NCBI GenBank assembly: GCA_035308905.1
Contig: DATGFS010000004.1
Coordinates: 1 to 64,000 of the forward strand
Direction: 5' to 3'
Length of the DNA: 64,000 nucleotides
Source: a bacterium
GTDB lineage: Bacteria > Sysuimicrobiota > Sysuimicrobiia > Sysuimicrobiales > Segetimicrobiaceae
Position numbers and translations under genes: made by a program
Part shown: in pieces, positions 2,747 to 21,678 of the stretch
Numbering within the stretch: position 1 is the first letter of the stretch
Layout: each line of letters starts with the position of its first letter
The notes under the pieces: generated by a model
What the model was told of the DNA's origin: nothing
The model's input: the letters and a program-made list of their open reading frames with translations, nothing else
Databases searched by the model: none

Positions 2747-3098
2747 GGGGGCGAACGGTCTCGACTGAGCTCGCAGAAGCAGGGTTGCGCGCCGAGGTGG
2801 TCCGGGTCCTCGTTAAACAACCGGACGGCGCATACACGCCGATACACAGCTCGCACTCGCTGCTTAACTAAGTAGCGACGCTCCCCCCGCAGCGCCGGCG
2901 GGCGGGGAGTGGGCGCCACTCAGCCGGCTGCTCCGGGCCTCCTCGCTCCGGGAGGACCGGCTAAGACCTAGAGAGCTAGCGGGATCGGTATCCGGTCTGC
3001 GGGAGACCGGTTCCGCGAATTCAAAGCGCAGGCTACGCGCGTAGACGCTCTGCCCTCGCGGCTCTAGGACGCGGGTTCGATTCCCGCCGCCTCCACCA
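2747..3098 (+). ncRNA. ssrA: tmRNA (transfer-messenger RNA)
   Basis: A one-piece 352-nt tmRNA. The 5' GGGGGCG (2747-2753) pairs with CGCCTCC (3088-3094), with one G-U pair, to form the 7-bp acceptor stem. A discriminator A and an encoded CCA end the gene at 3098. The T-arm GGGTTCGATTCCC is intact. The tag frame runs from GCC at 2838 to TAA at 2865-2867 and encodes ADTQLALAA, so the full tag would be (A)ADTQLALAA. The resume codon is preceded by ATACAC, keeping the conserved A at -4 as in E. coli (ATAGTC). SmpB is encoded upstream. Confidence 0.96.
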
Positions 3099-3147
3099 TC
3101 TCGAGCCTTCGATTTGGCAACGCTCTTTCGCAACGAAGGCTGGACAC

Positions 3148-3296: not shown

Positions 3297-3326
3297 GCTA
3301 GAGAGCAAGACTCGGTACGCGGTCAT

Positions 3327-3366
3327 ACCGGCTACGGGTGGTGCAGCCCGTAGCCGGTTTGTTTTT
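3327..3366 (+). terminator. Perfect hairpin plus T-run in the leuS leader
   Basis: ACCGGCTACGGG (3327-3338) pairs with CCCGTAGCCGGT (3347-3358) without mismatch. The 8-base loop is TGGTGCAG, and TTTGTTTTTG follows. This is a strong intrinsic terminator placed 48 bases before the leuS start and downstream of the leuS promoter, so it can act as an attenuator as well as stopping ssrA readthrough. The loop contains TGGT, the sequence T-box leaders use to read a tRNA ending in ACCA, but the rest of the T-box consensus is not met. Confidence 0.8.
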
Positions 3367-3413
3367 GTTCCGTACGAGTCACACGAGCCGAAGGCGTGGA
3401 GGCGGTGAGCATC

Positions 3414-5279
3414 ATGGAAGACTACAACCACCGTGCGATCGAACCCAGGTGGCAGCAACGGTGGCTCGAGGCCCGCCTCTACGCGCCCGATGTGCGACGG
3501 GCAACGCGGCCCTTCTACAACCTCATGATGTTCCCGTATCCCTCCGCCGAGGGACTCCATGTCGGGAACGTGTACACGTTCTCCGGCGCCGACGTGTACG
3601 GTCGGTTCAAGCGGATGCAGGGATGGGACGTTTTTCAGCCGATCGGCCTGGACGGGTTCGGGATTCACTCTGAAAACTACGCGATCAAAGTCGGCGAACA
3701 TCCGGCACGCGTCGCCGCACGAACGCGGCGCCGTTTCTACGCGCAACTTCAGGCGACGGGCTGTGGGTTCGCATGGGAGCATCGGCTCGAGACGTACGAT
3801 CCGGCCTACTATCGCTGGACGCAGTGGCTATTTGTCCAACTGTTCAGGCGCGGTCTGGCCTACCGCGCCGCAGCCCCGGTCAATTGGTGTCAGAGCTGCC
3901 GTACGGTGTTAGCCGACGAACAGGTCATCGACGGCATCTGCGAGCGGTGCGGCACCACCGTCGTGGTGCGTCAGCTGGAGCAATGGTTCTTTCGGATTAC
4001 CGCGTATGCAGATCGGCTGCGCGACAATCTCGAGCAGCTGGATTGGTCGGACAAGATCAAGAACGCGCAGCGACAGTGGATCGGCGAGCGCGGCGCCGGG
4101 CTGCACTTACGCGACTGGCTGATCTCGCGGCAACGGTACTGGGGCCCGCCGATTCCGATGGTGTTATGCTCCGTGGACGGCTGGGTCCCGGTGAAGGAAG
4201 CAGACCTTCCGGTTCTGTTGCCCGAAGCGGAGCAGTATCAGCCGTCGGCTGATGGCCGCACCCCCCTGGGCCACGACGAAGCTTTCCTTCAGGCCACATG
4301 CCCGCTGTGCGGCGCACCGGCGCGTCGCTCGGACGAGGTCTCCGATACCTTCCTGGACTCCGCGTGGTACTTCCTGAGATATCCATCCGCCGATGTCCAT
4401 GACCGGCCGTGGGATCCTGAGATCACGCGCCGCTGGCTTCCTGTCGATATGTACATCGCGGGCGCGGAGCACGCCGTGCTGCACCTGCTGTACACACGCT
4501 TCATCACCATGACGCTGTACGACATGGGCCACCTCGAGTTCGAGGAACCCTTCCGGCGGTTGCGCGCCCACGGCCTGCTTCGCAAGGACGGCGCCAAGAT
4601 GAGCAAGTCGCGCGGCAACGTGGTTGCACCGGACGACTACATTCGGACGGCCGGCGCCGACGCGCTGCGAACGTACCTCCTGTTTACCGGCCCGTTCGAT
4701 CAGGGGGGCGACTTTCAGGATAGGGGGCTGCGAGGCATCACGAGGTTTCTCGGCCGCGTATGGCGGCTCACATGGGAGGCGGCCGGCGTAGCGGGCCGGG
4801 CGCGGGACTCGACGCTCGCGGGCGCGCTGTCCGATACTGTTCGCAAAGTCACCGCCGACGCGGATGATCTGCGGTTCAACACCGCGATCGCGGCACTGAT
4901 GAGGTTCGTCAATGTGTGGGACGCGAACCGTGAACGAGCCGCGCGCGACGTGCCGCACGTGTTCCTGAGACTGCTGGCGCCCTTCGCCCCGCACCTGACC
5001 GAAGAGTTATGGGTGGCGGCCTTGCGCGAGTCGCCGAGTATTCATGCATCGTCCTGGCCGCAGAGTGACGCCCAGTGCCGCCAGGGCACGACGGCGATCA
5101 TCGCGATACTCGTCAACGGGAGGGTGCGGGATCACATCGAGGTGCCCTTTGCCGCAACCGAGGAGGACGTGATCGCTCGGGCGCTCCAGCGCCCGGCCGT
5201 GCGCCGGCTGGTTGTCGGGGATCCAGCACGGGCAGTATACGTACCGGGGCGCGTGCTCAACATCGTGGCGCGTGCTTGA
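3414..5279 (+). CDS. leuS: Leucyl-tRNA synthetase lacking the CP1 editing domain
   Basis: A 621-residue class I synthetase that charges tRNA-Leu; bacterial LeuRS is usually about 800-900 residues. Present: the HIGH-type motif HVGN (49-52), a zinc knuckle (C159, C162, C176, C179), SRQRYWG, KMSKS (395-399), the anticodon-binding helices and the C-terminal domain ending in YVPGRVLN. Where the roughly 200-residue CP1 editing domain should lie between WIGR and LRDW, the chain runs WIGERGAG directly into LHLRDWLISRQ (about 222-236), a clean in-frame loss. ATG at 3414 is chosen because GGAGG lies 11 bases upstream; a GTG at 3396 is possible. GC content is visibly lower than in most neighbours. It could be the only LeuRS or a paralogue. 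Confidence 0.95.
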   Translation: MEDYNHRAIEPRWQQRWLEARLYAPDVRRATRPFYNLMMFPYPSAEGLHVGNVYTFSGADVYGRFKRMQGWDVFQPIGLDGFGIHSENYAIKVGEHPARVAARTRRRFYAQLQATGCGFAWEHRLETYDPAYYRWTQWLFVQLFRRGLAYRAAAPVNWCQSCRTVLADEQVIDGICERCGTTVVVRQLEQWFFRITAYADRLRDNLEQLDWSDKIKNAQRQWIGERGAGLHLRDWLISRQRYWGPPIPMVLCSVDGWVPVKEADLPVLLPEAEQYQPSADGRTPLGHDEAFLQATCPLCGAPARRSDEVSDTFLDSAWYFLRYPSADVHDRPWDPEITRRWLPVDMYIAGAEHAVLHLLYTRFITMTLYDMGHLEFEEPFRRLRAHGLLRKDGAKMSKSRGNVVAPDDYIRTAGADALRTYLLFTGPFDQGGDFQDRGLRGITRFLGRVWRLTWEAAGVAGRARDSTLAGALSDTVRKVTADADDLRFNTAIAALMRFVNVWDANRERAARDVPHVFLRLLAPFAPHLTEELWVAALRESPSIHASSWPQSDAQCRQGTTAIIAILVNGRVRDHIEVPFAATEEDVIARALQRPAVRRLVVGDPARAVYVPGRVLNIVARA

Positions 5280-5323
5280 CCTTCGCTTCCCGCAGCACGG
5301 CGTGGAACGGAAGTTCTGCCGTA

Positions 5324-5352
5324 GTTCGAATTCTTTGCGTCCGGGTCCACCA
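5324..5352 (+). repeat. 29-bp direct repeat, left copy
   Basis: Begins GTTCGAATTCTTTGCG and ends GGTCCACCA. The identical 29 bases recur at 7634-7662, bracketing a 2.3-kb AT-richer segment. The ends resemble a tRNA 3' end (TTCGAAT and CCACCA) but no T-stem or acceptor stem forms. The 11-base AGTTCGAATTC at 5323-5333 also has its exact inverted copy at 5360-5370. Probably an attachment-site-like or recombination junction. Confidence 0.75.
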
Positions 5353-5499
5353 TGCAACGAATTCGAACTGCCTTCTGCGGGCGCAGGCATATCCGAGTCC
5401 GCGACTTTTCGCCGCTACGGGTCCGCCAATAGCAAACAAGTGTTCGATATGATACGATTAGCTCGGCGCGGGATTCTACAATAAACCTAAGCGGTTGGG

Positions 5500-5505
5500 T
5501 ATAAT
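5500..5505 (+). promoter_or_regulatory. -10 box giving a leaderless DUF4160 transcript
   Basis: TATAAT sits only eight bases before the GTG at 5514, so transcription would start at or within about two bases of the start codon. No ribosome-binding site is visible, which agrees with a leaderless mRNA. The -35 region is weak. Confidence 0.45.
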
Positions 5506-5513
5506 CGTAAATA

Positions 5514-5768
5514 GTGGTCACAGTTCACGCTCGAGGCGTTGCCTTTCGAGTGTATCCTCAAGACCACGGGCGTCGTCACGTACACGGTCTATATGCGGGG
5601 GTCGCAGTTATAGTAAGTCTAAGAGTAGATGGTACCGTCGCTCTCGCGAATCGTAAGGATCGCGTCCGACCTGGCAACGCGAAACGTAGCGACGTACGAT
5701 GGGTGTTGGAGACCGCGGCAGAGCAGTTCGAAGCCCTTGTTGCTGCGTGGGAGGCTATGCACAAATGA
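5514..5768 (+). CDS. DUF4160 protein (toxin-antitoxin-like pair, first gene)
   Basis: An 84-residue protein matching the DUF4160 pattern: a strand ending in RVYPQDH, then HVHGLYAG (about residues 22-29), a beta-hairpin with LRVDGTVAL, and a C-terminal helix rich in W, E and A. DUF4160 genes are commonly found next to DUF2442 genes, and such pairs are predicted, not proven, toxin-antitoxin modules. The stop overlaps the ATG of the next gene (ATGA), so the two are coupled. A TATAAT lies just upstream. Base composition is visibly less GC-rich than the host, consistent with acquired DNA. Confidence 0.7.
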   Translation: MVTVHARGVAFRVYPQDHGRRHVHGLYAGVAVIVSLRVDGTVALANRKDRVRPGNAKRSDVRWVLETAAEQFEALVAAWEAMHK

Positions 5769-6421
5769 CGCGGCACCGCGTCATCACAACGGATGCAGAA
5801 GTCGACGCCGCCATCGCGGAAGCGCGTGCGCAACAAGATGATCGGGCGCGTGCGGTTGCGGCGTACTATGATGCGTCGAACGATAGGGTCGTTATTCGTC
5901 TCGCTTCAGGTGTTGATGTTGCTATTCCCCGTAGGCACCTGCAAGGTCTTGAGAACGCCACAGACGCCCAGGTCGCCAATATCCAGATTGAAGGGGCAGG
6001 ATCTGGGCTGCATTGGGCGTCCCTGGACGTGGACCATTACGTTCCTGGGCTCCTGGCAGGTGTGTTTGGAACAAGGCGTTGGATGAGCGAACTTGGACGA
6101 AAGGGCGGCTCTGTCAGAAGCGTGGCCAAGACGGCGGCCGCTCGCGCCAACGGCCGCATGGGCGGGCGTCCTCGTCAACACGCCCGTACGGAGACTGGAA
6201 AGGGGGAGCGTGTAATGTCTCGCGGACTGGATGAACGTTATAGAGACAAAGACGGTGAGATCCGACGGAAGCAAGGCAACACCAGAGTGAGCACACTACG
6301 TCAAGTCTACGGGGAGGATTTTGCGCCCGACTTTCGCAGCGACGCGAAGCTAGAAACGGTCCTCGAGGAGACTGGCTGCGAATCGCTTTCTGAATACTTG
6401 AAAACGCGCCCGCACCGGTAA
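5765..6421 (+). CDS. DUF2442-type protein fused to a small basic C-terminal module
   Basis: A 218-residue protein beginning ATG at 5765 and overlapping the DUF4160 stop. Residues about 30-95 fit the small beta-rich DUF2442 fold (DRVVIRLASGVDVAIP, then LHWASLDVDHYVPGLLAG). A stretch rich in A, R and G follows (KGGSVRSVAKTAAARANGRMGGRPRQ is the nature of the region at about 110-138). From residue 151 a different 68-residue module starts at an internal ATG (6215) preceded by AAGGGGGAG at good spacing. It may therefore also be made separately. This module is charged (MSRGLDERYRDKDGEIRRK) and resembles short hypothetical proteins of genomic islands. Function unproven; likely partner of the DUF4160 protein. 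Confidence 0.6.
   Translation: MTRHRVITTDAEVDAAIAEARAQQDDRARAVAAYYDASNDRVVIRLASGVDVAIPRRHLQGLENATDAQVANIQIEGAGSGLHWASLDVDHYVPGLLAGVFGTRRWMSELGRKGGSVRSVAKTAAARANGRMGGRPRQHARTETGKGERVMSRGLDERYRDKDGEIRRKQGNTRVSTLRQVYGEDFAPDFRSDAKLETVLEETGCESLSEYLKTRPHR
6215..6421 (+). CDS. Possible internal start: 68-residue C-terminal module made alone
   Basis: In the same frame as the DUF2442 gene, an ATG at 6215 has a strong Shine-Dalgarno (AAGGGGGAG ending about seven bases upstream). It would give a 68-residue charged protein ending SLSEYLKTRPHR. Either the upstream gene reads through into it as a fusion, or both products are made. I do not recognise a characterised family. Confidence 0.4.
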   Translation: MSRGLDERYRDKDGEIRRKQGNTRVSTLRQVYGEDFAPDFRSDAKLETVLEETGCESLSEYLKTRPHR

Positions 6422-6622
6422 CGATGGAACTGAGGTCATGCGCGGGTTAGTAAGGCGTGATTTGTTGAGGGGAACGAGACTCCGCCAGCCGGAGACGAGC
6501 CGTCTGCGCGATCGGATCGACCACCGCGCAGTAGCCGTGGCTAGGAAGACCCTTGGTTTCATGTTAGGTCCGGCCGCTGCTTTGATCGCTTCGCTCTTCC
6601 GACCCGCGCCATGCCCGCCGAG

Positions 6623-6895
6623 TCACTGGTGCTCGAAGTCCCAACGGGCTGCCTGCATAAGTGCGGTCAGCATATCATCGTAGGATCGTTGCTCGTCGGC
6701 ACGGAATCCGAACTCGCGTAGAAGCGAGTGGACCCGCGCGCCTGCCATCCAAACCTCCTCCAGATTGTGTCCTCTGGCTCGCGCAAGGTTACAGGCGTCG
6801 AGCGCGACAAGTCGGCTGTCATTATCGGGCAGCCCCCGCACGAACGCGGAGAGATTGCGCAGCGTCGCGACGACCCGATCCAAACTCGCCAGCAT
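6623..6895 (-). CDS. Hypothetical 90-residue helical protein
   Basis: ATG at 6895, product 90 residues, predicted all-alpha and acidic (SLDRVVATLRNLSAFVRGL, then DDMLTALMQAARW at the end). No family is recognised. The codons just upstream in this frame (TLSDLTAEDKSDE) also look protein-like and reach back past the end of the small ORF at 6919-7035. The two may be one gene split by a frameshift, or a coupled pair. It lies inside the repeat-bounded segment, convergent with the DUF2442 gene. Confidence 0.5.
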   Translation of the reverse strand: MLASLDRVVATLRNLSAFVRGLPDNDSRLVALDACNLARARGHNLEEVWMAGARVHSLLREFGFRADEQRSYDDMLTALMQAARWDFEHQ

Positions 6896-6918
6896 CTCAT
6901 CGCTCTTATCCTCGGCCG

Positions 6919-7035
6919 TCAGGTCCGAGAGCGTCGGCCGCCTCTCGCGTTACGAGCGTCGTCGCGCTGCGCGGCGACATCTCTAGTCTCGTCTTCGATG
7001 GCCTCGGCCACAAGTTCCGCGATCGTCCGCTTCAC
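6919..7035 (-). CDS. Hypothetical 38-residue protein
   Basis: GTG at 7035 preceded by GAAGGGG at about eight bases. The 38-residue product starts MKRTIAELVAEAIEDETRD and ends in a basic tail (GGRRSRT). The helical, acidic then basic character resembles small antitoxin or regulator N-termini, but no family is assigned. The stop lies 23 bases before the ATG of the next minus-strand gene, with the downstream frame already coding-like at that point. Confidence 0.45.
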   Translation of the reverse strand: MKRTIAELVAEAIEDETRDVAAQRDDARNARGGRRSRT

Positions 7036-7090
7036 GCGCGTCACCCCTTCACCGACTGCCTGTCCTGCGTCTGGCAGTTGGGTCGATATC

Positions 7091-7104
7091 CTAGGAAAAC
7101 CTAG
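7091..7104. promoter_or_regulatory. Inverted repeat CTAGG-AAAA-CCTAG, possible operator
   Basis: A perfect 5-bp inverted repeat with a 4-base A spacer (7091-7104), flanked by a further CGAT/ATCG match (7084-7087 and 7105-7108). It lies 56 bases upstream of the minus-strand GTG at 7035, where an operator for a small autoregulated gene would be expected. Confidence 0.35.
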
Positions 7105-7201
7105 ATCGAATTGCAGCGACTAAGCTGACGGGAGCTTTTTCAGGATAATTCACGATTCCGGCCGCTTGACCTACGGGAGAGAGTGACTGTAATCTTGCGG
7201 C

Positions 7202-7414
7202 ATGAGGTACGGTCGTCAGCTCGAGTTGAAGGCCAGATTGGACAAACTGGTACCGCGTGGTCTCCGGGGTAGCATACAAAACCGCTTCCGCGCACTCGTT
7301 TCGTTCTACGCCAGCCAGCCACGCTACTCGTTCGAAGATGGTCTGACTCTAGCGCTGGCTTCTATTAGAGAGAGCGATCCCAAATTTGTTCCGCTAATCA
7401 AACCTGACAGCTAG
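7202..7414 (+). CDS. Hypothetical 70-residue protein in accessory segment
   Basis: ATG at 7202; 70 residues, basic N-terminal half (RQLELKARLDKLVPRGLRGS) and a C-terminal helix with LTLALASIRES. No family recognised. Codon use is less GC-biased than in flanking chromosomal genes. It ends at 7414 directly against the convergent helix-turn-helix remnant. Its length and composition fit a real small accessory gene, but chance cannot be excluded. Confidence 0.35.
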   Translation: MRYGRQLELKARLDKLVPRGLRGSIQNRFRALVSFYASQPRYSFEDGLTLALASIRESDPKFVPLIKPDS

Positions 7415-7569
7415 AAGTCGCCGTGAGGCAATTCTAGGGCATCGGTTAAATTGCGCGCCTCAAGCCAGGCAACTGCTTTCGCTACAGTCTTCGGGTCCAC
7501 TTCGAGTCGCCTCGAGATTGTTGAGAAGTTCAGGCGCAGCTGAGACAGCCGAAATGCCTTGGGAGCGAT
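7411..7569 (-). pseudogene. Helix-turn-helix gene remnant
   Basis: An open minus-strand frame of 52 codons with no usable start, bounded upstream by an in-frame TAG at 7570-7572. It encodes a convincing helix-turn-helix: NFSTISRRLEVDPKTVAKAV followed by AWLEARNL. This type of motif occurs at the ends of recombinases and in small regulators. Lack of a start and of the rest of the domain suggests a decayed gene, possibly the element's lost recombinase or regulator. It lies just inside the right direct repeat. Confidence 0.4.
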
Positions 7570-7633
7570 CTATTGGTAGAGCGCCCTCGCGTTCGTGTCT
7601 AGCAACACAGAGTTGAGGGATAATTGGGCTGTG

Positions 7634-7662
7634 GTTCGAATTCTTTGCGTCCGGGTCCACCA
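7634..7662 (+). repeat. 29-bp direct repeat, right copy
   Basis: Identical over 29 bases to 5324-5352. It ends 15 bases before the stop codon of the minus-strand FAD oxidoreductase gene, so the segment 5324-7662 lies between two intact chromosomal genes. Outside the repeat the flanks differ (tgcaacg on the left, gttcacc on the right). Confidence 0.75.
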
Positions 7663-7677
7663 GTTCACCTTGCCACG

Positions 7678-9057
7678 TCAGCCCGCCGGTTTGATGTTCT
7701 GGTTCACGCGGAACACGTTGGCCGGGTCGTACAACTTCTTGATCGCGGCGAGGCGCGCATAGTTGCCGCGATAGGTCGCTTTGATCCGGTCCTCGCCCTC
7801 GTCCATCATGAAGTTCACGTACGCTCCTCCGGCGGAATACGGGTGCAGCGCGTCCCAGTAATCCTTGGTCCAGTCGATGATGCGGCCGTTGTTGGCGGGA
7901 TCCGGATCGACGCCCACGATCACCATGGCCCACGTGGCATCGCGATAGCTCCAGGCTGTCTCGTTGGCGCCCACGCGGTGTGCGGCGCCGTCGATGGGGT
8001 AGAGGTGCATCGTGGAATGCATGGTAGGCAAGAGCGCGCCGTGCGTTGTATGCTCGGCGATGGCCGCGTCGCTCAATTCGCGGACAAAGTCCGCGCGCCA
8101 GTACCATTGCAGCCCGGGCGGATACAAGGCATCGAAGATGGTCTGCAGTGCCGGGTGCGGCATCGGCCCCACCAGTTCCAGCGCCGGCGGTTTGAAGCGG
8201 CGCACCGGCGCAAACGTCTGCTCGAAGCGCTCGGCCGGGCCGGTGTAGCACCACACCACACCGCACATCTTTCTCAAGTGTAGGTGCTCCGGGAAGATCG
8301 GCGCCGGTGGCACCGTGAGGAAGGCGAAGAACCCGGTCAGGTCGTCGGGGGCGTTCGGGAGGAACCCGCGGTACCACTGCATGACTTCGGCGGCGTCGTC
8401 GAGGTCCCAGAGCATGGGACCGGCGCACACGGTGTCGATCGGATGGAGCCGGAACAGAAACGACGTCACGACGCCGAAGTTGCCGCCGCCGCCGCGGATC
8501 GCCCAGAACAGGTCGGGCTGCGACTCCGGGCCGGCCGTCACAACGCGGCCGTCCGCCAGCACCACGTCCGCCTCCAGAAGATTGTCGATGGCCAGGCCGC
8601 ACCGCCGCGTCAGATGGCCGAGCCCCCCGCCGAGGGTCAATCCGCCGACGCCCGTCGTCGAGATGACCCCGCTCGGCGTCGCCGCCCCGAAGGCGTGCGT
8701 GGCATGGTCGACGTCCCCCCACGTGCTGCCGCCTCCGACGCGGACAGTGCGGGCCGCCGGGTCGATGCGCGCATAGCGGATCGGCGACAGGTCGATCACC
8801 AGGCCCCCGTCGCACACGCCGAGCCCGCCCGCGTTGTGGCCGCCGCACCGCACCGCAATGAGCAGATCGTGCTCGCGCCCAAACCGCAGTGCGGAGGTCA
8901 CGTCCGCCACGTCCGCGCAGCGGGCGATGAGCGCGGGGCGCCGATCGATCATGGCGTTGTGCACGCGGCGAACCGTGTCATAGGCGGCGTCGCCGGGCAG
9001 GATGAGTTGTCCCCGAAACTCCTGTCGTAGCGTCTCTATGCCAGCCTGCATCGCCAT
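7678..9057 (-). CDS. FAD-linked oxidoreductase (PCMH/BBE type)
   Basis: A 459-residue flavoprotein of the berberine-bridge/VAO superfamily. The N-terminal PCMH FAD domain has VRCGGHNAGG (about 68-77), whose His is the expected 8-alpha covalent FAD site, and GGLTLGGGLGHL (about 138-149). A BBE-type C-terminal segment contains NVFRVNQNI near the end. The second (Cys) FAD linkage of bicovalent BBE enzymes is absent: the position reads GVISTTG. The fold oxidises alcohols, sugars or alkaloid-like substrates; the substrate here is unknown. The cupin gene lies 30 bases upstream on the same strand, probably in one operon. Confidence 0.88.
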   Translation of the reverse strand: MAMQAGIETLRQEFRGQLILPGDAAYDTVRRVHNAMIDRRPALIARCADVADVTSALRFGREHDLLIAVRCGGHNAGGLGVCDGGLVIDLSPIRYARIDPAARTVRVGGGSTWGDVDHATHAFGAATPSGVISTTGVGGLTLGGGLGHLTRRCGLAIDNLLEADVVLADGRVVTAGPESQPDLFWAIRGGGGNFGVVTSFLFRLHPIDTVCAGPMLWDLDDAAEVMQWYRGFLPNAPDDLTGFFAFLTVPPAPIFPEHLHLRKMCGVVWCYTGPAERFEQTFAPVRRFKPPALELVGPMPHPALQTIFDALYPPGLQWYWRADFVRELSDAAIAEHTTHGALLPTMHSTMHLYPIDGAAHRVGANETAWSYRDATWAMVIVGVDPDPANNGRIIDWTKDYWDALHPYSAGGAYVNFMMDEGEDRIKATYRGNYARLAAIKKLYDPANVFRVNQNIKPAG

Positions 9058-9087
9058 GGCGGTCCCCTCCGTCGCCGATTTTGTAGG

Positions 9088-9507
9088 CTATTTGACCAGC
9101 GTGGTCGCTTCGGCGCCGAGCGGGAGCAGGATGCTCACCGCGACGCGGGTCGTGAGGGCGCCGCGGTTGACCACTGCGTGAACGGTGCCGGTCTGCTCGC
9201 GGAAACTCTCTCCGGCTTTGACCACCTGTTCCTGGCCCGCCTGCTGAAGGACGAGCTGACCGGTGAGCACGGTGGCCACCACCGGCCCCCCATGGATGTG
9301 CTTGGGAATGCCGGTGCCCGGTGCAAAGTCCAGCACCAGATTGATCAGGTCGTAGGGCTTGTCCGCGGCCGTGACCGGAAACGCGGCTTGGGACACGGTG
9401 ACGGGGCCCGCGGACGTCGCGTTCCCCGCGGCAAGGGGACCGGCCGCCGCTGCGGCCAGCATGCCGATGGCAAGCACCCAACCGATGTTCCGCCGAGCGG
9501 ATCGCAT
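9088..9507 (-). CDS. Exported cupin-domain protein
   Basis: 139 residues with a signal peptide (hydrophobic core WVLAIGMLAAAAAGPLAAG), then one cupin barrel: PKHIHGGPVVATVLTGQL (about 70-87) carries the first metal-binding motif, and QTGTVHAVVN the second-motif histidine. Such periplasmic cupins are usually of unknown function. It lies just upstream of the FAD oxidoreductase gene and is probably cotranscribed with it. About 170 bases separate it from the end of the large regulator gene. Confidence 0.78.
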   Translation of the reverse strand: MRSARRNIGWVLAIGMLAAAAAGPLAAGNATSAGPVTVSQAAFPVTAADKPYDLINLVLDFAPGTGIPKHIHGGPVVATVLTGQLVLQQAGQEQVVKAGESFREQTGTVHAVVNRGALTTRVAVSILLPLGAEATTLVK

Positions 9508-9678
9508 TTCTCAACACCTCCCGTGTGGTCGCGCTCGAGCGCGCGTGGCGTCGAACCCGTGTTGGGTCCGATCGGGGACACCATACGGGGAGAGGCGTTC
9601 GCGAAGCGTTCGCCGCGGCGTTCGCGGCGAGGATTGCCGCGGGGGGCCGGCGTCAGGAGGCGGGCTCGGGCGCGACGG

Positions 9679-12600
9679 CTAGGGGATAGGCGCGGTCTGC
9701 GAAAGTGCTGCGCGGGCGTCCCGGAGGTCGGGCGTCTCGAACCCCTCGGTGAACCAGCCGAAAACAGGGGCGAGCAGCGCTCGGGCTTCGTCATGCCGCC
9801 CCCCGGCCGCCCACCGGCGGGCGAGGCTCAGGGCTGCGCGCAGCTCGAGCGACTTCGCGGCCTGGGACTGGGCCACGTCCAGCGCCTTGAGAAACAGGGG
9901 CTCCGCCGCCTCCGGGCTCCCAAACTCGCCTTTCAGACGATAGAGCTCCGCGGTCCACCACACATCGCCGTTGTGGGCCGCGGTCGCAAGCGCCGCATCC
10001 ACGACGGCCTCAGCCTGCGCCCGCCGCCCCGCTCGGGCGTGGACCTCGGCGAGCAAGGCGAGGAAGTAGGGCCGGCGCGTCTCGGCATGAATCGCCCGCA
10101 GACGGTCGAGCGCGGCCTCGATCTCGCCGACAAGTGCGCCGGCCGGCTCGGTGCCGGACCGCGCCCAGGCGCGGAGAATATCGCACCACTCCGCATAGTA
10201 GACGAAGCTGTACTTTCGGCAAAGCTCGTGGACCTCTTCGGCGTGCGCGAGGCTTCGCTCCGTTTCCCCGCGCAGCTGGAACAGCACGGCGGCATACGCA
10301 CGCACCAATACCTGGCTATACGGATGGCCGAGATCGTCGGCAATCGCCACCGCCCGAAGGCAGCGCTCCGCGGCGAGATCGGGGTAGCCCAGCAGCCACA
10401 GCGTGTGCGACTCCCACGCCAACAGGAACACGCCCAGGTTGGAACCGAAAGGCGTCGGCCGCGGGTGGGCGAAGTCGTAAAGCGCGATCGCCTGCTCAAA
10501 GTAATCGCGCGCCTGCGCGAGCGCTCCGGCGCTCGCGAGGCCGCCGGCAAGTAGATGCAGGCTGTCGATCAGGAACCGGCCGTCCTTCTGCGCCAGCCGG
10601 TAAAACGTTGTCGCGAGGGTATGCTGCTCGCGAATGTTCCCTCGGACGAATTGCATGCCGCACAATCCCCAGAGACAGCGCATCACGGCTTCGGTGTCAC
10701 CGAGCCGCTCGCCCAACGCGCGGACGCGCTCCAGCGCGGCCTCGATCTCCGGCGTCGCGTATCCGGACACGGCGTTGAGGGGAGCTGTCAGCGCGAGCTG
10801 CAGCGAGAGTTCGCGCCGGTCGCGCTGTGCGCTCTCCGGCAGCCGGTGGAGCAGGGCGAGCGCCTTCCGGAAGTGCTGGATGGCCCCCTCGCTTGCGGAG
10901 AGTCGCGTGTCTTCCCGCGCGGCGCGCTCGTAGAACTGGATCGCCCGGGCTGGCACACCGGCCTGCTCGTATTGTGAGGCAATCTGGGCGCTGGCGGCGT
11001 CGAGCTCGGTAGCATACAGTAGTTCGAGGGCCTGGGCGATCCGCCGATGCAGGAGCCGGCGCTTGGGCAGGGCGACCTCGGCGTACGCGACGTCGCGAAT
11101 CCGGTCGTGGCTGAAGTCGTACGCGTCGGCGGCCTGCTCGCGAAGTATGCGACGCCGCCACAACTCATCGAGCGCGCGGATAAGCTCGGGCTCCTCGAGA
11201 TCGCTGGCTTCGCGGATCACATCCAGGCGAAACTCGCGGCCGATCGCGGCCGCAAGGCCGGCCAGATCTCGGGCCGGAGGGGACAGCTGCGCGAGGCGCG
11301 CGGCGATGACCGCCTGGACCCTGGGCGGCAGCGTGGCCGGCCGCGTCCGGTCGTCCGCGCCGTCGCGAAACGGCAGGCCGGCACGGATGAACTCGACGAG
11401 AAAGAGCGGATGACCCTGGGTGCGGCGGAAGACGTCGGCAAGGGTCGGCGCGTCCAGCCGTCGCTCGGCCGTCTGCTGGGCGAGGGCCGTCGCCTCCGCC
11501 TCGCCCAGAGAGGCCAGCTCGATCTCCTCGCACTGGCCGGACTGGCGCAGCGCCAGCAACACTTCGGACAGCGTCGGATTGTCCGCCTGTTCTTCCGTAC
11601 GCACCGTGCCGAGGAGCAGGAGTGGCGCGGTGGGGTCGAACCGGAGCAGGAAGCGGAGCCACTCGAGGCTGTCCCGATCGCACCACTGCAGGTCGTCGAG
11701 AAACAGCACCAGCGGCGTTGTCGCAAGCGCGCCGCGGGCGAGCGCCTCGAAGAGGCGCCGGCGCTCCCAGCCCTCGGGTGGCGCTCCGGAGGGCGCGAGG
11801 CCGGGGCGGTCCGCCGCCAGTTCGGGCAGCAGTCGCGCGATCTCGGCCCGCCAGACCTCTTCCAGCGCGACAAGCCCGGCCTTGAGCGCCGGTGCGCGCA
11901 GCCACTCCGCGATCGGGCTGTACGCGAGCCGTCCCTCCGCCGCGTACGAGCGGCTGCGGACCGCGGGGATACGCTGGGCTGCGCACCACGAGAGAAACTC
12001 TTCGGCCAGCCGTGTCTTTCCTATCCCCGCCTCCCCGTAGATCACGCAGCAGACGGACTCGCCGGCGGCCGCGCGCCGCCAAGCGCCGAGGAGATGCCGC
12101 CACTCCTTTTCCCGGCCCACGAGTGTCGAGGCCGCCCCCGGTGCAGGACCCGGGGCCCCGGATGTCTCGAGCTCCAAGAGGCGCCGGTAGGCGTCCTGCG
12201 TCGCGGCGTCGGGGTGCACGCCCAGGCCGCGCTGCAGAGTGGTGGCACACACGTGGTAGAGTTGTACGGCCGCGGCTCGGTCGCCGTTCAGCGCGAGGAG
12301 TCGCATCAGCCGGCGGTAGGTCGCCTCGTGCAGCGGGTCGAGCTGCAGAAGTCTGCGGGCGTGCCGCGCCGCATCCGCGTAGGCCCGCCGGGCCTCCAGC
12401 AGCTCGGCAAGATCTTCGAGCGCGCGCACGCACCGCTGCCGCAGCCGCTCCCGTTCCTCGAGTACCCAATCGTCGTAGCTGTCCGGGAGCAGATCGCCCG
12501 GATACAGGGCCACCGCCTCCTCGAGCGCCTCGCGCACCGGCGGCTGACCGTCCGGGTACGCGCGGCCGATGGCCTCCTCGAGCAGGCGCACGTCCACCGC

Positions 12601-12903
12601 ACAGGGGGCGTCCGGCCGCCATCGCAGCATTCTCTCGGAGACATCAAGGCAGGCGTCCGACTCCGGCAGGGCGCGGCGGAGGTGATGGAGCTCGCGGCGC
12701 AGGTTGGTGAGCGCCTGGGCTTCGTCGGAGTCCGGCCAGAAGAGGAACGCGAGCCGTTGGCGCGGCTGCGGCTGATCACGACGCAGGACGAGATACGCCA
12801 GCAAGGCTTGCTGCCGCGCCGTCCGGATCCCGGTCACTTGATGTCCGTCGCGGGTCACGCGGAATCCGCCCAGTAGATCCACGCGAAGACCGGAGCCGGC
12901 CAT
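9679..12903 (-). CDS. SARP/AfsR-like transcriptional activator with AAA/TPR region
   Basis: 1074 residues. An N-terminal winged-helix DNA-binding region (about 5-95) and a BTAD helical repeat domain (about 100-245) are followed by an AAA/STAND ATPase with Walker A GEAGIGKT (290-297) and Walker B LVLFLDDLQW (about 392-401). The C-terminal 450 residues form TPR-like helices. The architecture matches BTAD-containing signal-responsive activators such as AfsR-type regulators. It probably regulates the adjacent cupin/FAD oxidoreductase genes, which lie downstream on the same strand, but no operator is identified. Not a LuxR-type protein: no C-terminal helix-turn-helix is visible. Confidence 0.87.
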   Translation of the reverse strand: MAGSGLRVDLLGGFRVTRDGHQVTGIRTARQQALLAYLVLRRDQPQPRQRLAFLFWPDSDEAQALTNLRRELHHLRRALPESDACLDVSERMLRWRPDAPCAVDVRLLEEAIGRAYPDGQPPVREALEEAVALYPGDLLPDSYDDWVLEERERLRQRCVRALEDLAELLEARRAYADAARHARRLLQLDPLHEATYRRLMRLLALNGDRAAAVQLYHVCATTLQRGLGVHPDAATQDAYRRLLELETSGAPGPAPGAASTLVGREKEWRHLLGAWRRAAAGESVCCVIYGEAGIGKTRLAEEFLSWCAAQRIPAVRSRSYAAEGRLAYSPIAEWLRAPALKAGLVALEEVWRAEIARLLPELAADRPGLAPSGAPPEGWERRRLFEALARGALATTPLVLFLDDLQWCDRDSLEWLRFLLRFDPTAPLLLLGTVRTEEQADNPTLSEVLLALRQSGQCEEIELASLGEAEATALAQQTAERRLDAPTLADVFRRTQGHPLFLVEFIRAGLPFRDGADDRTRPATLPPRVQAVIAARLAQLSPPARDLAGLAAAIGREFRLDVIREASDLEEPELIRALDELWRRRILREQAADAYDFSHDRIRDVAYAEVALPKRRLLHRRIAQALELLYATELDAASAQIASQYEQAGVPARAIQFYERAAREDTRLSASEGAIQHFRKALALLHRLPESAQRDRRELSLQLALTAPLNAVSGYATPEIEAALERVRALGERLGDTEAVMRCLWGLCGMQFVRGNIREQHTLATTFYRLAQKDGRFLIDSLHLLAGGLASAGALAQARDYFEQAIALYDFAHPRPTPFGSNLGVFLLAWESHTLWLLGYPDLAAERCLRAVAIADDLGHPYSQVLVRAYAAVLFQLRGETERSLAHAEEVHELCRKYSFVYYAEWCDILRAWARSGTEPAGALVGEIEAALDRLRAIHAETRRPYFLALLAEVHARAGRRAQAEAVVDAALATAAHNGDVWWTAELYRLKGEFGSPEAAEPLFLKALDVAQSQAAKSLELRAALSLARRWAAGGRHDEARALLAPVFGWFTEGFETPDLRDARAALSQTAPIP

Positions 12904-21548: not shown

Positions 21549-21632
21549 GTTGGTCGGTCGACAAAGGCAAACCCGCGGTAACTCGGGGGCGCAAAGCCAC
21601 GGGACCCTTCGTAGGGTCAGCCGGGCCGCCAA
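21549..21632 (+). promoter_or_regulatory. Cyclic di-GMP-I (GEMM-I) riboswitch aptamer
   Basis: Shows the GEMM-I landmarks in order: AAGGCAAACC (21564-21573), a short hairpin, GGCGCAAAGCCACGGG (21588-21603), a stem with a TTCG-type loop (GACCCTTCGTAGGGTC, 21603-21618) and AGCCGGGCCGCC (21619-21630). The 3' side of P1 can instead pair with GGTTTGCGG (21651-21659), a plausible switch, and an intrinsic terminator follows. It controls an HD-GYP phosphodiesterase and a GGDEF cyclase, so the cell would use c-di-GMP to set the level of its own turnover enzymes. Confidence 0.8.
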
Positions 21633-21678
21633 AACCGGCAGCAGTGGAACGGTTTGCGGGGGCAGCCGGGTTGCCGAA

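Follow-up and report, generated by a model that had tools for sequence, protein, structure and literature searches.

Probable relics of tandem serine-integrase elements downstream of ssrA in a Segetimicrobiaceae genome

A low-GC segment between two 29-bp repeats lies downstream of ssrA

The stretch of 64,000 nucleotides analysed here (the window; positions 1 to 64,000 of contig DATGFS010000004.1, GenBank assembly GCA_035308905.1) comes from a bacterium of the family Segetimicrobiaceae (Sysuimicrobiota), and our subject is a segment of it that lies between two direct repeats downstream of ssrA, the transfer-messenger RNA (tmRNA) gene, and is probably what remains of an integrative element. The repeat, GTTCGAATTCTTTGCGTCCGGGTCCACCA, occurs identically at 5324-5352 and 7634-7662, on the plus strand and in direct orientation. 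An initial annotation, made from the letters alone, had described this exact pair, a lower G+C (GC) content in the 2.3 kb between the copies, and small accessory open reading frames (ORFs) between leuS and a flavin adenine dinucleotide (FAD) gene. Each of these descriptions was borne out. The GC content is 0.579 over 5323-7662, compared with 0.689 for the window and approximately 0.70 for 1-2746 and 7663-12900; leuS ends at 5279 (+) on one side, and a berberine-type FAD oxidase gene ends at 7678 on the minus strand on the other. ssrA lies 2.2 kb upstream of the left copy and has the same orientation as both 29-mers.

A search allowing up to three mismatches found these two copies alone in the 4.0-Mb assembly. 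Chance alone would produce about 7e-4 exact pairs as long as this one in 4 Mb, and about 1e-7 in 64 kb. The repeat is thus not dispersed. A tRNA or tRNA fragment was also ruled out as its identity: ARAGORN called no tRNA in 5324-7662 and placed a tmRNA upstream instead, and the repeat carries five extra bases. An integron attC site (no GTTRRRY pattern) and an insertion sequence (29-bp copies direct, no evident transposase ORF) were excluded by reading alone.

The likeness between the two copies continues leftward over 71 bp at 76% identity (7592-7662 against the left copy), and the left 29-mer forms one half of a 47-bp imperfect palindrome (5323-5369). With P and P' for the halves of the attachment site attP, B and B' for those of the target attB, and O for the core, the layout reads ssrA-[leuS...HTH stub]-P-O-P'-[toxin-antitoxin...HTH]-P-O-B', where HTH denotes a piece coding for a helix-turn-helix domain (Table 1). 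The P-O-P' of the left copy is short of one base.

Table 1 Features around ssrA and the two 29-mers in the window
Feature	Position	Strand	Basis
ssrA (tmRNA); 3' end is the presumed original attB	2747-3098	+	ARAGORN; Rfam RF00023; family attL adjoins ssrA 3' ends in relatives
B half-site and core at the ssrA 3' end, GGTTCGATTCCCGCCGCC-TCCACCAT	3074-3099	+	Sequence; core TCCACCAT shared with 5346-5353, TCCACCA with 7656-7662
Second leucyl-tRNA synthetase gene (leuS), CP1 editing domain missing; probable cargo of the first (inner) island	3396-5279	+	TIGR00396 match
Stub of the upstream element's HTH coding piece (RIRT-TAELPFHAVLRE...)	5285-5323	-	Translation in the family HTH frame; 71-bp 76% repeat with 7592-7662
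attP-like imperfect palindrome P-O-P', AGTTCGAATTCTTTGC-GTCCGGGTCCACCAT-GCAACGAATTCGAACT	5323-5369		Inverted repeat; left 29-mer is P half and core; compare palindromic attP-type sites at loci L121 and L119
Possible remnant, last codons of the integrase C-terminal tail (DMPAPAEGSSNSL)	5355-5393	-	Resembles family tail LLDPLPEGE..GGSNSLRWW
DUF4160 protein, putative toxin (DhiT-like)	5514-5768	+	Pfam PF13711, E=8.7e-4, below gathering score
DUF2442 protein, putative antitoxin (DhiA-like); 4-nt overlap with toxin gene	5765-6421	+	Pfam PF10387, E=1e-12
90-aa ORF, no family	6623-6895	-	ORF list; profile searches
70-aa ORF, no family	7202-7414	+	ORF list; profile searches
HTH coding piece, pseudogene, most likely the displaced integrase C-terminus; in-frame TAG at 7570-7572	7411-7633	-	Genome search match, E=1.2e-13, with one TAG; alignment
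attR: P half and core (29-mer 7634-7662), then flanking DNA (B')	7634-7669		Structure common to L004, L005, G007, G009 and others

The same half-site bounds islands in other genomes

Our evidence is comparative throughout. Searching the genome and its relatives for the 29-mer, as the initial annotation had proposed, proved informative: the attachment half-site (P half and core) is present in more than 10 other genomes. An exact 28-mer occurred in two metagenome-assembled genomes (MAGs) of Acidobacteriota (loci L004 and L005) among approximately 85,000 species genomes, and in both the inner side carries the same minus-strand HTH coding piece as the right end of the window's segment. Furthermore, a 3-mismatch search of 43 genomes of the window's phylum yielded two additional sites in order-mates (G007 and G009); both follow ssrA and share its orientation, at distances of 1.85 kb and 4.5 kb, respectively. 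The DNA between ssrA and the site encodes a ParE-like toxin, a weak ParD-like partner and a hydrolase-like ORF in G007, and an ArsR regulator, a permease, an SBF-family (ACR3-like) transporter (ars operon) and a PIN-domain toxin in G009. Between G009 and its congener G011 the distance from ssrA varies (4.5 and 10.0 kb), and homology resumes about 30 bp past the G009 site; the site therefore marks an island boundary. Variable DNA between ssrA and a conserved flank is thus present in this pair, while the window's own family is comparable on the ssrA side only.

Toxin-antitoxin-like genes were seen in all three site-bounded islands, i.e., the window, G009 (L071, 1073-4355) and G007 (L070, 419-930). 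Beyond attR in L004 (2868-3110) lie tandem repeats of about 98 bp, each with an ssrA 3'-end tail (GATTCCCGCCGCCTCCACC), which gives the impression that the displaced target was multiplied. Viral contigs contained no relatives of the 28-mer, the HTH peptide or the attL pattern, and plasmids gave no match to the HTH or integrase-tail queries. One distant recombinase relative was found in viral contigs, and phages and plasmids together held only distant recombinase relatives, with <35% identity among the matches listed.

The partner end joins serine recombinase genes to ssrA and tRNA-Ala

The opposite end was located by searching with the palindrome arm alone, which revealed its partner arm joined to ssrA or tRNA 3' ends as ...TCCACCAT-CGCAAAGAATTCGAACC. 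Such attL ends with integrase sequence adjoin ssrA in five genomes (G043, G011, G464, G502 and G460) and tRNA-Ala genes in four, namely G024 (anticodon CGC), which belongs to the window's genus, G025 (TGC), G026 (GGC) and G477 (GGC); the anticodons of G025 and G026 were read from the sequence by us. At these five ssrA and four tRNA-Ala sites the 3' end of the RNA gene is the island boundary. Read toward the tRNA, attL is the 3' end of a serine recombinase gene whose frame enters the antisense strand of the tRNA or tmRNA gene, giving peptides such as SNSLRWWRRRESNPRP.

All integrases found joined to the site are serine recombinases (PF00239, PF07508, PF13408). An integrase with Resolvase, Recombinase and zinc-ribbon domains stands beside the att site in L118, near-complete ORFs occur in L179 and L177, and the window copy has none. 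Both ends were found within one island in G043 and on a 4.1-Mb contig of G379, where the order is an ssrA-like 3' end, attL, the recombinase gene (all three domains), a MerR-like ORF, the HTH piece and attR, the last interrupted by masked bases.

Extra copies of the ssrA 3' end were observed downstream of ssrA in G023 (3.0 kb; L073), G026 (2.6 kb; L076), G029 (9.3 kb; L103) and G032 (14 kb; L102), exact over 27-30 bp in the first three and 94% identical over 32 bp in the last, and those in G029 and G032 run on into the family's P' half. In the window's family, ssrA is a hotspot for serial island insertion.

The site mimics its target with a 5-bp shift

Assembled by comparison of loci, attP in the integrase sense reads GGTTCGAATTCTTTGCG-ATGGTGGACCCGGA-CGCAAAGAATTCGAACC and spans about 48 bp, its arms inverted; palindromic P-O-P' sites were seen in L121 and L119. 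The same comparison identifies attB, with core ATGGTGGA, as the 3' end of ssrA or of a tRNA-Ala gene. The T-loop of the target, ATTCGAACC (AATCGAACC in ssrA), recurs in attP 5 bp farther from the core, such that the motif is 9 nt away from core TGGTGGA in the target and 14 nt away in attP. For all seven B halves no register fitted better than this shift, and in one of them other registers fitted equally well. Serine integrases likewise have their zinc-ribbon motif 5 bp closer to the centre of attB than to that of attP (Rutherford et al. 2013, PMC3783163). A short palindromic attP with a zinc-ribbon-type motif 5 bp farther out than in attB is what characterizes large serine integrases, and here the zinc-ribbon domain would read the T-loop motif.

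The geometry also accounts for the look of the repeat, which had been described as a tRNA 3' end that does not fold. That description is accurate and reflects real mimicry of the tRNA/tmRNA target: the T-loop motif gives the repeat its likeness to a tRNA 3' end, and the 5 extra bases keep it from folding as a tRNA.

An HTH coding piece is detached from the integrase in integrated islands

Across the P' half and core, the integrase frame reads GSNSLRWW. In the P half, the homologues compared keep this frame as WWTR[ST]QRIRT and on into a conserved HTH, and in L119 the frame runs from the integrase tail through attP to the HTH. In integrated islands the HTH is detached from the integrase, and it is under purifying selection, as indicated by nonsynonymous (dN) and synonymous (dS) divergence in two pairs (dN 0.16/dS 1.33, approximately 0.12; dN 0.27/dS 1.20, approximately 0.22). 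The simplest reading of these frames is that integrase, attP and HTH may form one gene on the circular element, split by integration. With attP inside the integrase frame, integration would therefore leave the island's far end with the piece that codes for the C-terminal HTH. The remnant of an HTH noted at the right end of the segment does belong to the element, and its identity can be refined: most likely it is the integrase's own C-terminus, displaced.

A decayed tandem array is the most probable explanation

Taken together, we consider the segment to be a decayed integrative element of a little-described large-serine-integrase family within a tandem array downstream of ssrA, with a probability of roughly 0.82. 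According to the steps proposed, attP would recombine with attB at the 3' end of ssrA or tRNA-Ala, and the integrase gene would be divided: its catalytic part, closed by antisense tRNA/tmRNA codons, would lie at attL and its HTH at attR. Loss of the HTH at this point might, speculatively, alter integrase activity or expression. In the window, two elements would have inserted in tandem, the first now holding the editing-domain-less leuS and the second the dhiTA-like toxin-antitoxin pair, and deletion of both integrases would have left P-O-P' at 5323-5369 and P-O-B' at 7634-7662. The layout read from the sequence matches that of two elements in tandem, and the copy in the window is a relic. That the segment is an integrated element whose integrase is gone had been proposed, and that part of the proposal stands, with recombination sites as the boundaries. 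The 29-mers are, however, unlikely to be the two ends of one insertion; their identity would rather reflect two equivalent right ends (P and core) of tandem elements than attL and attR of a single one.

Several observations weigh against this interpretation. No intact integrase-attP-HTH gene was found, and the continuous P-O-P' genes seen (window, L119 and L121) are degenerate; the split gene is consequently something we infer. A possible start codon, judged by eye, precedes the HTH in 6 of 13 homologues, i.e., it is unconserved, and the HTH could still be a separate small gene. No P' half follows ssrA in the window, G007 or G009, which points either to loss of the inner attL or to a different route of arrival for the innermost cargo. 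Because of this loss, leuS is a likely member of the first element and no more. The integrase-tail signal beside the left site covers about 13 codons, and owing to this shortness its reading as a tail remnant is suggestive only. The window's right flank (B' after 7662) matched no ssrA flank in the window's family. Moreover, the genomes searched are mostly MAGs, in which assembly breaks at tRNA/tmRNA ends are common.

The main rival to a split gene holds that the HTH fragment is a gene of its own, for instance a directionality factor or repressor at the attR end. Purifying selection on a stand-alone piece in integrated islands would suit such a gene, as would the ATG, GTG or TTG near the domain start in some homologues. 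Nevertheless, we consider it unlikely, given a candidate start that is not conserved and a frame that is continuous with the att-encoded residues, and so with the integrase, and that in L119 spans tail, attP and HTH.

For the segment as a whole, a classical tyrosine-integrase island at a tRNA or tmRNA gene, with the 29-mers as attL and attR carrying a displaced tRNA 3' fragment, would agree with the tandem islands and duplicated ssrA 3' ends common downstream of ssrA in the window's family (G023, G026, G029 and G032). It is very improbable in view of the serine type of all integrases joined to the site, the palindromic site with its 5-bp shift, and the 29-mer itself, which has five additional bases between T-loop and core, is hence no tRNA 3' fragment, and in neither copy directly follows a tRNA or tmRNA gene. 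The segment could alternatively still be excisable by an integrase supplied in trans, a suggestion of the initial annotation that P half and core, intact at both boundary sites, might seem to favour. It gained no support and we give it very little credence: the window's genome yielded no integrase bearing the family C-terminal tail, a tail that its one other full-length serine recombinase (C5:9035-10579) lacks, and the pair consists of P-O-P' and P-O-B', whereas pairings other than attP x attB are not expected to recombine for serine integrases (PMC3783163). A recombination scar or chance repeat around unrelated accessory genes, to which a decayed copy without integrase might point, is hardly credible when chance predicts about 1e-7 such pairs in the window and the sequence recurs beside the same neighbour in a second phylum, as well as at ssrA or tRNA genes. 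Relatives carrying the segment without repeats would also have spoken against a decayed element; G024 and G025 carry only the toxin-antitoxin module, elsewhere.

Cargo and neighbouring genes

The product of the window's leuS has 627 aa, with approximately 180 aa cleanly missing relative to the genome's normal full-length leucyl-tRNA synthetase (LeuRS; contig C59). No counterpart of this second leuS was found in the other genomes of the window's family. Comparable CP1-less forms were observed in G015 and G016, and the G016 copy directly adjoins the normal leuS. Just 5' of the second leuS, a terminator-like hairpin with a T-run (3326-3366, +) is possibly an attenuator, and no T-box was detected upstream at the Rfam gathering score.

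The DUF4160/DUF2442 module has counterparts of 74-77% nucleotide identity in G024 and G025. In G024 (L010, contig C135) it lies about 1.1 kb from an FAD-oxidase-like gene, in a different arrangement and without the 29-mer. The pair resembles dhiTA, a tested toxin-antitoxin system in Dickeya (PMC8198452), in its adjacent, overlapping genes with the toxin first, although the toxin match is below the Pfam gathering score. Elsewhere in the window, a c-di-GMP-I-GGC riboswitch aptamer (Rfam RF03167, 63.7 bits) was found at 21557-21634 (+).

Discussion

The closest known parallel by description is provided by the ssrA islands of Dehalococcoides (McMurdie et al. 2011, PMC3146451). In these, ssrA is the target of the CcrB-related serine recombinase DsiB, the 3' end of the integrase gene lies across attL so that its stop codon falls outside the island, islands stand in tandem and many lack an integrase. 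The present family shares a serine recombinase at ssrA, the overlap with attL, tandem islands and integrase loss. It differs in the crossover: insertion in Dehalococcoides occurs in the T-loop (nt 333/334) with a 20-bp ssrA direct repeat (PMC3146451), while here an approximately 8-bp core, TCCACCAT, lies at the CCA end, unlike the insertion of the DsiB type. It further differs in using tRNA-Ala targets and in that the missing 3' fragment was identified as the conserved HTH piece at attR. The regions read showed no dsiA/parB/mom module, though no search was aimed at one.

An attP within the integrase coding sequence has been stated for phage Mx8 (of the Myxococcus phages Mx8 and Mx9; PMC6070905), in which integration similarly alters the C-terminus. 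Mx8 is placed by Islander among tyrosine integrases extending across attP (PMC4383910), whereas the integrase here is of the serine type and a whole HTH domain is lost. With the large serine integrases of phages (A118/LI, Bxb1 and phiC31) the family shares domain order, a palindromic attP of about 48-50 bp and the 5-bp motif shift (PMC3783163), and it departs from them in its tRNA/tmRNA 3'-end target and in having attP within the integrase gene. According to Islander (2015), only tyrosine integrases were known to target tRNA genes (tDNA; PMC4383910); the islands described here are not of that class, given serine-type integrases at the sites and a 29-mer that is no tDNA fragment. The best NCBIfam match of the L118 integrase was NF047343 (CcrB; E=3.7e-32), yet at 111.7 bits, with a cut-off of 900, it is not a member of the staphylococcal cassette chromosome (SCC)/CcrB group, which also differs in target and has no HTH split. 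On top of the features known from Dehalococcoides and Mx8, what appears new from these comparisons is the crossover position, the tRNA-Ala targets, the T-loop register shift and the identified 3' coding piece.

McMurdie et al. suggested that the integrase gene is perhaps complete only on the circle or beside an island carrying the missing 3' fragment (PMC3146451). As the missing piece sits at the other end of the island, our analysis offers sequence evidence for the idea of a gene complete only on the circle. More broadly, we see even odds that a serine-integrase family of the window's phylum and Acidobacteriota uses the T-loop as its zinc-ribbon motif at tRNA-Ala and tmRNA genes and carries attP in its own gene, such that integration removes the C-terminal HTH as a built-in switch and tandem insertion restores the gene.

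Serine integrases are prized as genome-engineering tools, and this family is a source of numerous natural attP/attB pairs at the conserved ends of tRNA and tmRNA genes. A T-loop read as the zinc-ribbon motif would be a simple structural reason for the use of such targets. For the organism itself, the tandem elements may explain how an editing-domain-less LeuRS and a toxin-antitoxin pair arrived in the window.

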